NCBI GenBank assembly: GCA_021731025.1
Contig: JAKFYD010000012.1
Location: 1-47,367 of the forward strand
Direction of reading: 5' to 3'
DNA: 47,367 nt
DNA from: Pseudobdellovibrionaceae bacterium
Lineage (GTDB): Bacteria > Bdellovibrionota > Bdellovibrionia > Bdellovibrionales > Bdellovibrionaceae
In this document: one piece after another, positions 41,151 to 45,964 of the stretch
How positions within the stretch are numbered: position 1 is the stretch's first letter
How the letters are laid out: each line of letters opens with the position of its first letter
Translations under genes and position numbers: made by a program
Notes under the pieces: model-generated
Told to the model about the DNA's origin: nothing
The model's database searches: none
What the model saw: the letters and a program-made list of their open reading frames with translations, nothing else

Positions 41151-41534
41151 CTAATTGCTTTTGGAATTTAAATGTTGGGAAAGGGTGGTGATAAGATCAT
41201 CCTTATCAAAAGGCTTTTCGAAAATTTTTACAATGCCGAGATTTTTAACCATTTGGGGAGCGAGCTGATTAAAGCCAGTACAAATGAAAATGGCGGGATG
41301 GGGAGTGGGTAAGGCTTTAATATTACCGACTAAAGAAATCCCATCTCCTCCGTGCATATTCATATCTGTCATTACGGCATCAATTTTATTCTTTTGAAGA
41401 ACTGAAATAGCTTCAAGGCCATTTGTAGCTTGGATCACTTCTGCTTCGGCAGAAGTAAAAATATCGCAGAGAATATCTCGAAGCATTTCATCGTCTTCGA
41501 CAATCAGTATTTTTTTTCCTTTTAAAGAGTGCAT
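41151..41534 (-). CDS. Stand-alone response regulator receiver
   Basis: A 127-residue single receiver domain. The acidic pocket EDD is in ILIVEDDEMLRDILC, the phospho-acceptor is Asp57 in DAVMTDMNMHGGDG, the switch Thr is in IFICTGFNQ and the Lys is in KIFEKPFDKDDL. There is no output domain, so it should act by protein contact or as a phosphate shuttle. It overlaps the 3' end of the CHASE-kinase gene by 13 bases and is very probably that kinase's partner. Confidence 0.93.
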   Translation of the reverse strand: MHSLKGKKILIVEDDEMLRDILCDIFTSAEAEVIQATNGLEAISVLQKNKIDAVMTDMNMHGGDGISLVGNIKALPTPHPAIFICTGFNQLAPQMVKNLGIVKIFEKPFDKDDLITTLSQHLNSKSN

Positions 41535-43690
41535 TCCTTTAACTCGTAGGTAGAAGGTTGAGCCGCAGGCAATGACAAAACGAAACGCGTGTGCGGACTT
41601 GATTGATCATACTCTAAAGTTCCGTCATGGGACTCAACAATTCCTTTTGATATACTTAATCCCAGACCGGTCCCTTTACCAACTTCCTTGGTGGTGAAGA
41701 AGGGAATCATAATTTTCTCAATTATAGACTGGGGTATTCCTGGACCACTGTCAGTGACTGAAATTAAGACACGATCATTTTCATGATAACATTTCACGTC
41801 GATCCATTTTTCAGGAAGATCGGATATGGCATCCATCGAATTATTAATTAGGTTCATTAAGACTTGTCCAATTTCTGTAGATCTTGCCATGATGTGAGCT
41901 TGGTCATCTATGCTTAATCTCAAATCAACTTGGTCTTGAGTGAGCTTTTCATTGCAAAGATCCAAGGTGGAATCGATAACGGATTTGACGCTAATTAAAA
42001 CTTTTGCATCATGTTCCGAGTTTCGAGAAAAGGAACGTAAACTTTTTACGATTTTCGCAATACGATTAACTGTAATTTCAATCTTTCCAAGGCGGTTCAA
42101 GTTATCTTCGCGAGTATCTTTAGATAAATTTATTTTCTCGCGAAGAACGCTGGCATGTGAATTAATAATAGCCAGTGGGGTATTGATTTCATGAGCAATT
42201 CGTCCTGCCATTTCTCCTAAAAGAGACATCTTGGCCGAAGAGTGCATTTTTGCTCTTTGGTACTCGATGGTTGAAAGTAACTTTTTCTGCTCTGTTAAAT
42301 CTTCAGCAATTCCCAAATAGCCAATCAACTGATTTTGAGCATTGTGAATCGCCGTCGTACACAGACGAACATTGATGCGTTCCTGATTTTTTTTATAAAA
42401 AGTCCATTCGTTGGTATCTGAACCATCCCGTAAAACTTTCGCCGTAAAGGTATCACGGCCAGGCTCGACTTTTTTATTCAATTCTTTGCTTAGGGATTGA
42501 GCTCTTAAGGCCACTTCCTCTGGATCGTAAAAGATAATTGATGTTTGTTTTCCAATGAGCTCGTCAGCTTTGTAACCCAGCATTTTTTCAGCGGCCGGAT
42601 TGAACATGATAATTTTGCCATCAGGTCGAGTAGCAAACACGGCGTGAGCGGCACTGTTAATCACCGAATTAAGCCACTTAGTTTTTTCAACTAAAGAACG
42701 ATCTTTTCCTTTGAAATTAAGAAAAAGTAAATAGCCACTGCCAACAATAACCATAATGCCTAAAATATAAATCGTAAAAATTTTGGCTAAAGATGAAACT
42801 ATATTGCGAGAAGTTTCAGTAACGTGAACTTTCCAAGAACGTCCACCGACCTGCAACTCATTGGTGTGAACGTAAGCTACAGAATTCGAAGTTTTAATTT
42901 TCAGGTTCGAGAAACTTATGACAGTGTCATTTTCCGCTTTAACGTTGACGTTAAGACCAAAAGGAATTTTTAGCTTAATCCTTTCAACTAAATTGTTGAT
43001 CATGATTGGTGTATAGACCCAACCAATAAGTGCCTCGAGCCTTGCGGCCTCACTCGTCGGAGTCTTTATCGATTTATAAACGGGTAGGAAAAAAACAAAG
43101 CCGGGATGCTCTTGTCCGTTGTCAAAAATGAGGGTTCTATCACTGATAATAGTTTCTCCGGTTTTTGCTGCGCTCAAAGCTGCTTCTTGAAGCTGGGGCT
43201 CATTCGAAAAATCCGAGCCCAGGAGTCTGAAATTATTTTCAATAGGCTCGATTTGCTCGACGATAAGATGTTGTTCGGCTAATGGATTAGCTTGGACTTT
43301 AAGGCGGGGATTAATCTTTTTTTGTTCTTGAATGTATTTGCCTAAGTCTTTATTTTTCACTGAGCGAACAAAACCAAAGCCTAGGGCCCCGGGAAAGTTA
43401 TTAAAGAGATCGCGAGATTCTGCGTAGGCCCGAAACTTTCTTTGATCAACCCGAAATTGATCTGTAACGAGCACGCCTTTAACTCCTTGCATTCCAAAAA
43501 CGAAAGTTTTGAATTCATCTTCAACAATTTTTTGGACCTTAAGAGTTTCGATTTCTAACTCTTGTTGATTCTGTTTAATGATGTTTAAGGTGAGACTGAT
43601 ACATAGAAAAGTCGCCAGAAGAATTGCAAAAATTGTCGTGGAAATTGGGGTCAATTTTGAGTTTATCGGCGGTTTTGTATTTAGCGGCAT
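41522..43690 (-). CDS. CHASE-domain sensor histidine kinase
   Basis: A 722-residue membrane kinase. Helix 1 is at about 17-37. A periplasmic CHASE domain (about 55-285, [20 protein letters not shown]) and helix 2 at about 303-325 follow. A PAS domain (about 338-465, [20 protein letters not shown]) leads to HisKA with His500 in [18 protein letters not shown] and HATPase_c ([26 protein letters not shown]). CHASE domains bind small ligands such as cytokinin-like molecules; the ligand here is unknown. It is not a hybrid and instead is paired with the downstream receiver protein. Divergent from the multicopper oxidase, with starts about 138 bases apart. Confidence 0.92.
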
Positions 43691-43828: not shown

Positions 43829-45964
43829 GTGAGCCAGACTAAAATAGCTATTCTTCTTGTGTTCTTCTTAATTCCACTTCAAATTGTCGCAAAAACTGTT
43901 CGCTATGAGCTTCTGATTAAGAATGAAAAAGTAAATCTCAGTGGAAAAACTGACGTGGATTTCGCTTTAACTGTTAATGGGGGTATCCCAGCACCAACAT
44001 TGGAATTTACCGAAGGAGACGAAGCCGAAATTCTGGTTAAGAATGGTTTGCCCGCCGAAGAGGTCTCGATTCATTGGCATGGAATTCTGCTTCCCCCAGA
44101 AGAAGACGGGGTCGCCTATATTAATACTCCCCCCATACTTCCTGGAACCTTCCGAACTTTTAGGTTTAAGATTCGCCAGCATGGGACCTATTGGTACCAC
44201 TCGCACACCATGCTTCAGGAACAAAAAGGGGTGTATGGCGCTTTCATTATTCATCCCAAAGAAAAGAAACTAAAATACGATAAAGATGTCGTTGTCGTTT
44301 TGAGTGATTGGTCTGATGAAAACGCAGACCAAATTCTGAAAAATTTAAAAAAAGATGGGGATTATTATCTTTATAAAAAAAATTCGGTGCGCTCATGGCT
44401 AGGAGCAATCAAGGCGGAACAATTTAAAACTTATCTGCAGGGCGAGTGGGAGAGAATGGGAGGGATGGATCTCTCGGATGTGGGTTATGATGCTTTTCTC
44501 ATTAATGGAAAGAAAGATCTTCAGTTACTTGCGGCTCATCCCGGCGAAAGAATACGCTTGCGAATTATCAACGCTGCTGCTTCAAGTTATTTTTACGTCT
44601 CTTTGGGACAAGAACCCATGAAAGTCATCTCAGCGGATGGAATTGACATTGAACCAGTTTACGCCAAAGAGATTTTAATGGGCATGGCTGAAACTTATGA
44701 CGTGCTCTTTACTGTTCCTAAACATAAAAACTATGAACTCCGTGCCACAGTTCAAGACATTACCGGTTTTGCATCGGGTTGGATTGGCGCAGGAGAAAAA
44801 GTTTTTGCTCCTGCAAAGGCTCCCGTCGATCTGTATGCGCCGATGAATCACGGCAGTCATTCATCGTCGGGACCAGAACATAGTCAGCATGGAGCACATC
44901 AAGATCATTCGACAAAAAAACCTCAAGAGCAAGGTCATGGAAACGGGCATGGCCATCATGCTGCACCTGAACCTAAACAAGAAGTTGTCGAGACATTAAC
45001 CGTCGATGGTTTAAAATCCTTAAAGCCAACAAATAACTTTCCTCCTGGAAAAGTTCACGAAGTGAAATTGGTCTTAGATGGAGATATGGAACGCTATGTC
45101 TGGCATATCAACGGAAAAGCTATCCATGAAGATCGAAATATCATTGTCAACGAAGGGGATACAGTTCGTTTTATTTACATCAACAAAACCATGATGCATC
45201 ACCCGATGCATTTGCACGGACATTTTTTTCGAGTCCTTAATAAAAATAAAGAATTTTCCCCTTTAAAACACACTGTGGATGTTTCGCCCAATGGCGAACG
45301 TGTTACTGAGTTTTATGCCAACGAACCGGGGCAATGGATGCTTCACTGTCATAACCTTTACCACATGAAAACGGGAATGGCTCGAGTCGCAAAATACGCA
45401 AGCTTTGTGCCTTCGCCGGAAATAGCTCATCATGAAAAGCATGATCCTCACAGCCATGATCATTGGTACATCGCAGGACTTTTGAGCGCGAGCACCAACC
45501 AAGCCGAGTTAAAACTATCAGCATCGCAAACTTGGAATGAGATTCAACTCAAAGCCGAATCTTTGAAAGAAGGAAAAGAAAATTTTTCGACAAAAGGTTC
45601 GTGGCATGCGGATGGGGATCTTATTTTTCGCCGATGGGTTGATAGCAATTTAAATTATATGATTGCGGGCAGTCACTTTGACGAGAAATCCTATGGCTTA
45701 TTGGGAGTAGGTTATAAGCTTCCTTTGCTCATCCATGCTCAACTGTTTGTGAACCAACATGGGAAATTCAGATTAGATTTAGAAAAACATTTTCAATGGA
45801 CCACACAAATTTTTTCAGAATTCGAATACATTTGGCGTCCCGAATGGTCCCATGAAGACGGAGAGTTGAAGTTCAATCTCATGTATGGGCCTTCCTGGCA
45901 TTGGGCTGCGGGACTGACTTTGACAAACGAGAGTCTTGGCGTGGGTGGCCGAGTTCGCTTTTAG
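43829..45964 (+). CDS. Multicopper oxidase fused to a CopB-like outer-membrane barrel
   Basis: A 711-residue protein with a signal peptide (about 1-21). Residues about 22-525 are a three-domain CopA/laccase-type multicopper oxidase with all four copper motifs: HWHG at 82-85, YWYHSH at 121-126, HHPMHLHGHF at 457-466 and HCHNLYHMKTGM at 506-517. A His-rich linker (about 340-378, GHGNGHGHH) lies between the copper domains. Residues about 545-711 resemble CopB, a copper-resistance outer-membrane barrel (YGLLGVGYKLPLLIHAQLFV, HFQWTTQIFSEFEY), ending in Phe as barrel proteins do. Normally CopA and CopB are separate. GTG start with AGGGG upstream. No Tat motif is seen, so export is probably by Sec, which is unusual for this class. 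Confidence 0.88.
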   Translation: MSQTKIAILLVFFLIPLQIVAKTVRYELLIKNEKVNLSGKTDVDFALTVNGGIPAPTLEFTEGDEAEILVKNGLPAEEVSIHWHGILLPPEEDGVAYINTPPILPGTFRTFRFKIRQHGTYWYHSHTMLQEQKGVYGAFIIHPKEKKLKYDKDVVVVLSDWSDENADQILKNLKKDGDYYLYKKNSVRSWLGAIKAEQFKTYLQGEWERMGGMDLSDVGYDAFLINGKKDLQLLAAHPGERIRLRIINAAASSYFYVSLGQEPMKVISADGIDIEPVYAKEILMGMAETYDVLFTVPKHKNYELRATVQDITGFASGWIGAGEKVFAPAKAPVDLYAPMNHGSHSSSGPEHSQHGAHQDHSTKKPQEQGHGNGHGHHAAPEPKQEVVETLTVDGLKSLKPTNNFPPGKVHEVKLVLDGDMERYVWHINGKAIHEDRNIIVNEGDTVRFIYINKTMMHHPMHLHGHFFRVLNKNKEFSPLKHTVDVSPNGERVTEFYANEPGQWMLHCHNLYHMKTGMARVAKYASFVPSPEIAHHEKHDPHSHDHWYIAGLLSASTNQAELKLSASQTWNEIQLKAESLKEGKENFSTKGSWHADGDLIFRRWVDSNLNYMIAGSHFDEKSYGLLGVGYKLPLLIHAQLFVNQHGKFRLDLEKHFQWTTQIFSEFEYIWRPEWSHEDGELKFNLMYGPSWHWAAGLTLTNESLGVGGRVRF

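Follow-up and report, generated by a model that had tools for sequence, protein, structure and literature searches.

Results

Architecture of the fused gene

The window (the whole stretch of DNA analysed, 47,367 nucleotides from a Pseudobdellovibrionaceae bacterium) carries an open reading frame that we confirmed to encode a multicopper oxidase with every copper ligand, followed on the same chain by a C-terminal outer-membrane β-barrel. An AGGGG sequence lies just 5′ of its GTG start. The features of the gene, with residues numbered along the encoded protein, are:

43829-45964, + strand: fused oxidase-barrel gene; open reading frame of 711 aa with a GTG start and no internal stop
43829..43891, + strand: Sec-type signal peptide, residues 1-21, read from the sequence; no twin-arginine motif
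43892..45415, + strand: three-domain multicopper oxidase, residues 22-529, from Pfam domain matches
44072..44206, + strand: copper motifs 1 and 2, HWHG (residues 82-85) and HSH (residues 124-126), from motif positions and alignment
44828..44980, + strand: His-rich insert within the oxidase, residues 334-384; 51 residues, 10 of them His
45200..45379, + strand: copper motifs 3 and 4, HPMHLHGH (residues 458-465) and HCHNLYHMKTGM (residues 506-517, type 1 copper cysteine Cys507, axial Met517), from motif positions and alignment
45416..45466, + strand: short His-rich linker between oxidase and barrel, residues 530-546 (...HHEKHDPHSHDHW)
45467..45961, + strand: outer-membrane β-barrel, CopB/PcoB-like, residues 547-711, with a C-terminal Phe; from AlphaFold, Foldseek and hhalign

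Three Pfam domains (Cu-oxidase_3, Cu-oxidase and Cu-oxidase_2) match the window protein above their curated cut-offs, and its nearest curated family is copper_res_A (TIGR01480), which it matches at 381 bits, below the cut-off of 479. The initial annotation had reported four copper-binding motifs in one chain as well as a His-rich segment inside the oxidase, and both observations hold: all four motifs were found (motif 2 in the context WYHSH, at residue 122), together they supply the full set of type 1, type 2 and type 3 copper ligands, and these ligands are invariant across 32 aligned sequences. The His-rich insert is predicted to be disordered, with pLDDT below 50 across residues 341-380 of the full-length model. 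In every aligned relative, 25-33 residues separate oxidase from barrel; the His-rich character of the linker is mostly limited to Bdellovibrionota. The full-length model, with a pTM of 0.86, is compatible with a defined arrangement of oxidase and barrel.

The C-terminal domain is a 12-stranded barrel

The initial annotation had taken the last ~165 residues for a barrel with Phe at its end, and had suggested structure prediction as a check. An AlphaFold2 prediction of the C-terminus, aligned with 63 relatives, bears this out: the model is a β-barrel with pLDDT 95.4, and relatives of the domain occur in many phyla. It has 12 strands, so that the earlier estimate of roughly eight at most was too low; and as the barrel is a complete PcoB-like fold, the description of it as a “minimal anchor” is unsupported. 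The published structure of PcoB is likewise a 12-stranded barrel, with both termini periplasmic (PMC9210255).

A Foldseek search of the PDB returned PcoB (7PGE) as the sole match under an E-value of 1e-3 (E 5.3e-5, TM 0.58). PcoB also ranked first with a second structural aligner (Z 13.8 over 157 residues, rmsd 3.3), with the next 12-stranded barrels close behind: Tsx at 13.6, OMPLA at 13.5 and NanC at 13.3. Because these three score nearly as high, the fold by itself does not single out PcoB; it is the sequence comparison, rather than the fold alone, that points to PcoB/CopB as the relative of the barrel.

No Pfam or NCBIfam model scores above cut-off in the last ~183 residues of the window protein, and a weak LBR_tudor match there (E 0.079) was put down to chance. 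Pfam CopB (PF05275), the family against which the initial annotation had suggested searching the C-terminus, gives no match reaching the gathering score with the window protein, and is weakly matched by 15 of 64 homologous C-termini (best E 9.7e-6). At the level of profiles, hhalign aligned the barrel family with 28 bona fide CopBs over 151 columns (probability 95.5, E 1.6e-8), and the barrel profile finds bona fide standalone CopBs in whole genomes of Pseudomonadota and Bacteroidota with E-values of 1e-5 to 2e-7; in a profile search of solved structures, only a designed 12-strand barrel and OmpG were found, both weakly. The proposed CopB likeness is real but remote.

The barrel spans 154-180 residues in the fused relatives, whereas the barrel region of CopB spans 205-220. 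The loops of the fused family are shorter than those of CopB, and conductance may therefore differ.

In the pore of PcoB, D97 and E207 bind Cu(II), E130 and E223 line the funnel, and E187 serves as the gate. In an hhalign alignment of 17% identity, which the acids themselves help to drive, the family columns onto which D97, E130, E187 and E223 map contain 42, 70, 62 and 41% Asp/Glu, respectively, and E207 maps two residues off a column with 61% Asp/Glu. The window protein has Ser553, Glu577, His636, His654 and Ile668 at the pore positions, Glu577 being the single acid. The acid-rich columns suggest that a copper pathway may be kept.

The fused form is widespread

The initial annotation regarded the fusion as an exception to the usual separate CopA and CopB genes and proposed surveying related genomes for both arrangements. 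The survey turned up the fusion in many phyla, and in the sampled Bacteroidota and Bdellovibrionota the fused form is commoner than the separate pair. In the window's class, the barrel is matched in 29 of 144 genomes and a standalone CopB scores above cut-off in one; the window's own genome yielded no separate copB in the Pfam CopB search. The one exception (G060, Bdellovibrionota) carries a fused protein together with a classical separate CopA-CopB pair, at C38:60948-63409 and C74:16562-18841, and offers a natural side-by-side comparison of the two forms.

All of the best 80 relatives in GTDB genomes have the C-terminal extension, which is incomplete in one of them. The fused form was found in Bdellovibrionota, Nitrospirota, Nitrospinota, Bacteroidota, Verrucomicrobiota, Methylococcales and others, where NCBI names the proteins “multicopper oxidase domain-containing protein”. 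With the same chain kept by relatives in many genomes and phyla, a single-genome oddity, a chance resemblance and a frame artefact are each ruled out. In Ilyobacter polytropus (Fusobacteriota) the fused gene is on a plasmid typed as conjugative (L147:4995-7022), which is a route for its spread between phyla; the plasmid also has genes for a two-component system and a periplasmic metal sensor.

In a set of 247 Bacteroidota genomes, the fused form is present in 43 and standalone CopB in 18, and no genome has both (3.1 such genomes expected; P of zero = 0.028). An independent search with the oxidase part only recovered 59 Bacteroidota genomes, made up of 42 with the fused form and 17 with standalone CopB, none with both and none with neither. 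The pattern is reversed in Pseudomonadota, with 2 fused and 45 standalone CopB in 249 genomes. Across fused-bearing genomes from many phyla, standalone CopB scores above cut-off in 1 of 40. Strict mutual exclusion is nonetheless rejected as a general law: both forms occur in G060 and in one Akkermansiaceae genome among the fused-bearers, where the separate CopB is on a small contig and may be contamination.

The standalone CopBs examined adjoin a CopA, except for one between plasmid insertion elements and one at a contig end. Some have long open frames (up to 755 aa) that were considered as other fusions and set aside, the oxidase there being a separate overlapping open reading frame. One Bacteroidota copy of the fused gene (L215:3616-5893) is broken into two reading frames, of 280 and 481 aa, through either a frameshift or an error of assembly.

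Oxidase phylogeny and export route

In a tree of oxidase domains, built by a quick search and rooted at the midpoint, a single branch (support 98 and 99) divides the 46 fused sequences from the 21 CopA sequences. This single split fits one origin of the fused form, as far as the oxidase sequences can tell; on the same tree, fission rather than fusion is a possible history of the two forms.

The two groups also differ in their export signals. A Tat signal (RRxFL-type) is present in 22 of 22 complete N-termini of CopA partners of standalone CopB and in 0 of 80 fused proteins, the window protein likewise being without one; three pattern matches among the fused proteins were discounted, two lying in the mature protein and one not being conserved in relatives. 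The absence of Tat from the fused form is what one would expect, since a chain that ends in a barrel must presumably reach the outer-membrane assembly machinery unfolded.

Gene neighbourhood

In Bdellovibrionota relatives, a CueR-type regulator gene lies a few bases upstream of the fused gene and a Cu(I)-translocating P-type ATPase gene is adjacent; both kinds of neighbour score above curated cut-offs (TIGR02044 for CueR). The window's fused gene lies between a divergent CHASE/PAS histidine kinase gene and a TerC gene, with no copper gene alongside; its genome has one copper ATPase above cut-off, located elsewhere, and no match to CueR. The divergent genes (41151-43690, − strand) encode the histidine kinase and then a lone receiver-domain protein, and it is possible that this pair regulates the fused gene. 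Just downstream of the fused oxidase, several relatives encode a small secreted protein that has a haem-type C-x-x-C-H motif, FDCH...PWY (L061:7209-7679, L068:7784-8254 and L070:7651-8157); the one tested had no NCBIfam match. It is a possible redox partner of the oxidase.

Discussion

The oxidase and the copper channel of copper-resistance systems are usually thought of as separate partner proteins. We found no description of a CopA-CopB fusion in the open-access literature searched (subscription papers fall outside that scope), and where the PcoB papers and the review that we searched mention a fusion of pco components, it is PcoC-PcoD alone (PMC9210255, PMC12509749, PMC7558416). The parts of the protein are known; the fused architecture is widespread and, apparently, undescribed.

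Comparison with known systems places the fused protein next to, and not within, the classical families. With CopA/PcoA (TIGR01480) it shares a three-domain oxidase with the same copper ligands and an outer-membrane CopB-type barrel as partner; unlike CopA/PcoA, the window protein falls below the TIGR01480 cut-off, uses Sec rather than Tat and has the barrel on the same chain, and the fused oxidases form a sister clade to CopA. With CopB/PcoB (PF05275; 7PGE) the fused family shares the 12-stranded outer-membrane barrel, profile homology and, as far as the remote alignment shows, acids at several pore positions; the fused barrel falls below the PF05275 cut-off, has shorter loops and lacks a disordered N-terminal tail of its own. 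In Caulobacter PcoB that tail is needed for PcoA stability and is the proposed docking site for PcoA (PMC12509749). Like CueO of the E. coli Cue regulon, the fused gene of relatives adjoins CueR and a Cu(I)-ATPase in one copper regulon, whereas CueO is soluble, Tat-exported and without a barrel (PMC7558416). The YcnJ-type PcoC-PcoD protein is another fusion of two pco components (PMC9210255, PMC7558416), but joins a periplasmic carrier to an inner-membrane protein rather than an oxidase to an outer-membrane barrel.

We consider that the fused protein is probably a single-chain counterpart of CopA/PcoA plus CopB/PcoB, i.e. a Cu(I) oxidase beneath its own outer-membrane copper channel. Our computations cover the domain composition, the fold of the barrel, its homology, the single clade, Sec versus Tat export and the copper-gene neighbourhood of relatives; for localisation, topology, substrate, channel activity and direction, we infer the following. 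The chain would be exported unfolded via Sec, and its C-terminal 12-stranded barrel would insert in the outer membrane; as the strand number is even, both barrel ends should lie in the periplasm. Since only 25-33 residues separate the end of the oxidase from the first strand, the oxidase would have to sit near the periplasmic mouth; it would acquire its fold and its copper in the periplasm, held just under the barrel mouth by its ~25-30-residue linker, in the place where the disordered N-terminal tail of PcoB would be. There it would use O2 to turn Cu(I), partly delivered by the Cu(I)-exporting ATPase, into Cu(II), for which the barrel, with its putative acidic lining, would provide a local path through the outer membrane, most probably towards the outside.

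It is unlikely that the barrel is an anchor only, holding the oxidase at the outer membrane and conducting no copper. The fused barrel is shorter than that of CopB and the window protein keeps few of the PcoB pore acids; but a lipid would make a simpler anchor, the full 12-stranded PcoB-like fold is retained, and the barrel substitutes one-for-one for standalone CopB. As judged from the alignment, acids also recur in the family at most of the pore positions of PcoB, which would speak for a functional channel rather than a mere tether.

It is very unlikely that the main substrate of the oxidase is something other than copper (phenols, Mn(II) or Fe(II)), with copper linked to it indirectly. The multicopper oxidase fold serves many substrates, and one laccase from Chitinophaga, 728 residues long and placed in the bacterial CopA group, oxidises guaiacol (PMC11237711); by its length and phylum this laccase may itself be a member of the fused family that was studied without notice of its barrel. 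Against a non-copper role stand the genes for CueR and Cu(I)-ATPases beside the fused gene of relatives, copper_res_A as the nearest curated family and the presence of a CopB-type barrel. Least probable of all is an autotransporter-like protein of the EstA type, in which the C-terminal barrel takes the oxidase to the cell surface: the order of passenger and 12-stranded C-terminal barrel is the same and the barrels of EstA, NalP and EspP are among the structural matches (Z 9-10), but PcoB is a clearly better match (Z 13.8), in sequence the barrel is homologous to CopB, autotransporter domains are much larger than the fused barrel, and the periplasm is where CopA partners act.

Returning to the single-chain oxidase and channel, a broader proposal, which we put forward tentatively and at somewhat less than even confidence, is that a widespread, unannotated family, in which the oxidase hands Cu(II) straight to its own pore, arose once, changed from Tat to Sec and replaces CopA-CopB over much of the Gram-negative world. 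PF05275 and TIGR01480 both miss the window protein at their cut-offs, and automated surveys would therefore record copB as absent and the oxidase as unspecific; because Pfam surveys miss the fused barrel, much of Bacteroidota and Bdellovibrionota is wrongly scored as lacking copB. The switch of export route, from Tat to Sec, bears on whether such oxidases need cytoplasmic folding or copper loading, a question raised for PcoA (PMC7558416), as the fused form can hardly cross the inner membrane folded. The role of PcoB/CopB is itself disputed, one study arguing for Cu(II) uptake (PMC9210255) and another for efflux, with the disordered tail stabilising PcoA (PMC12509749). The natural one-to-one fusion implies that the oxidase and its barrel function together, and it offers a single protein on which their coupling and the direction of transport can be measured.
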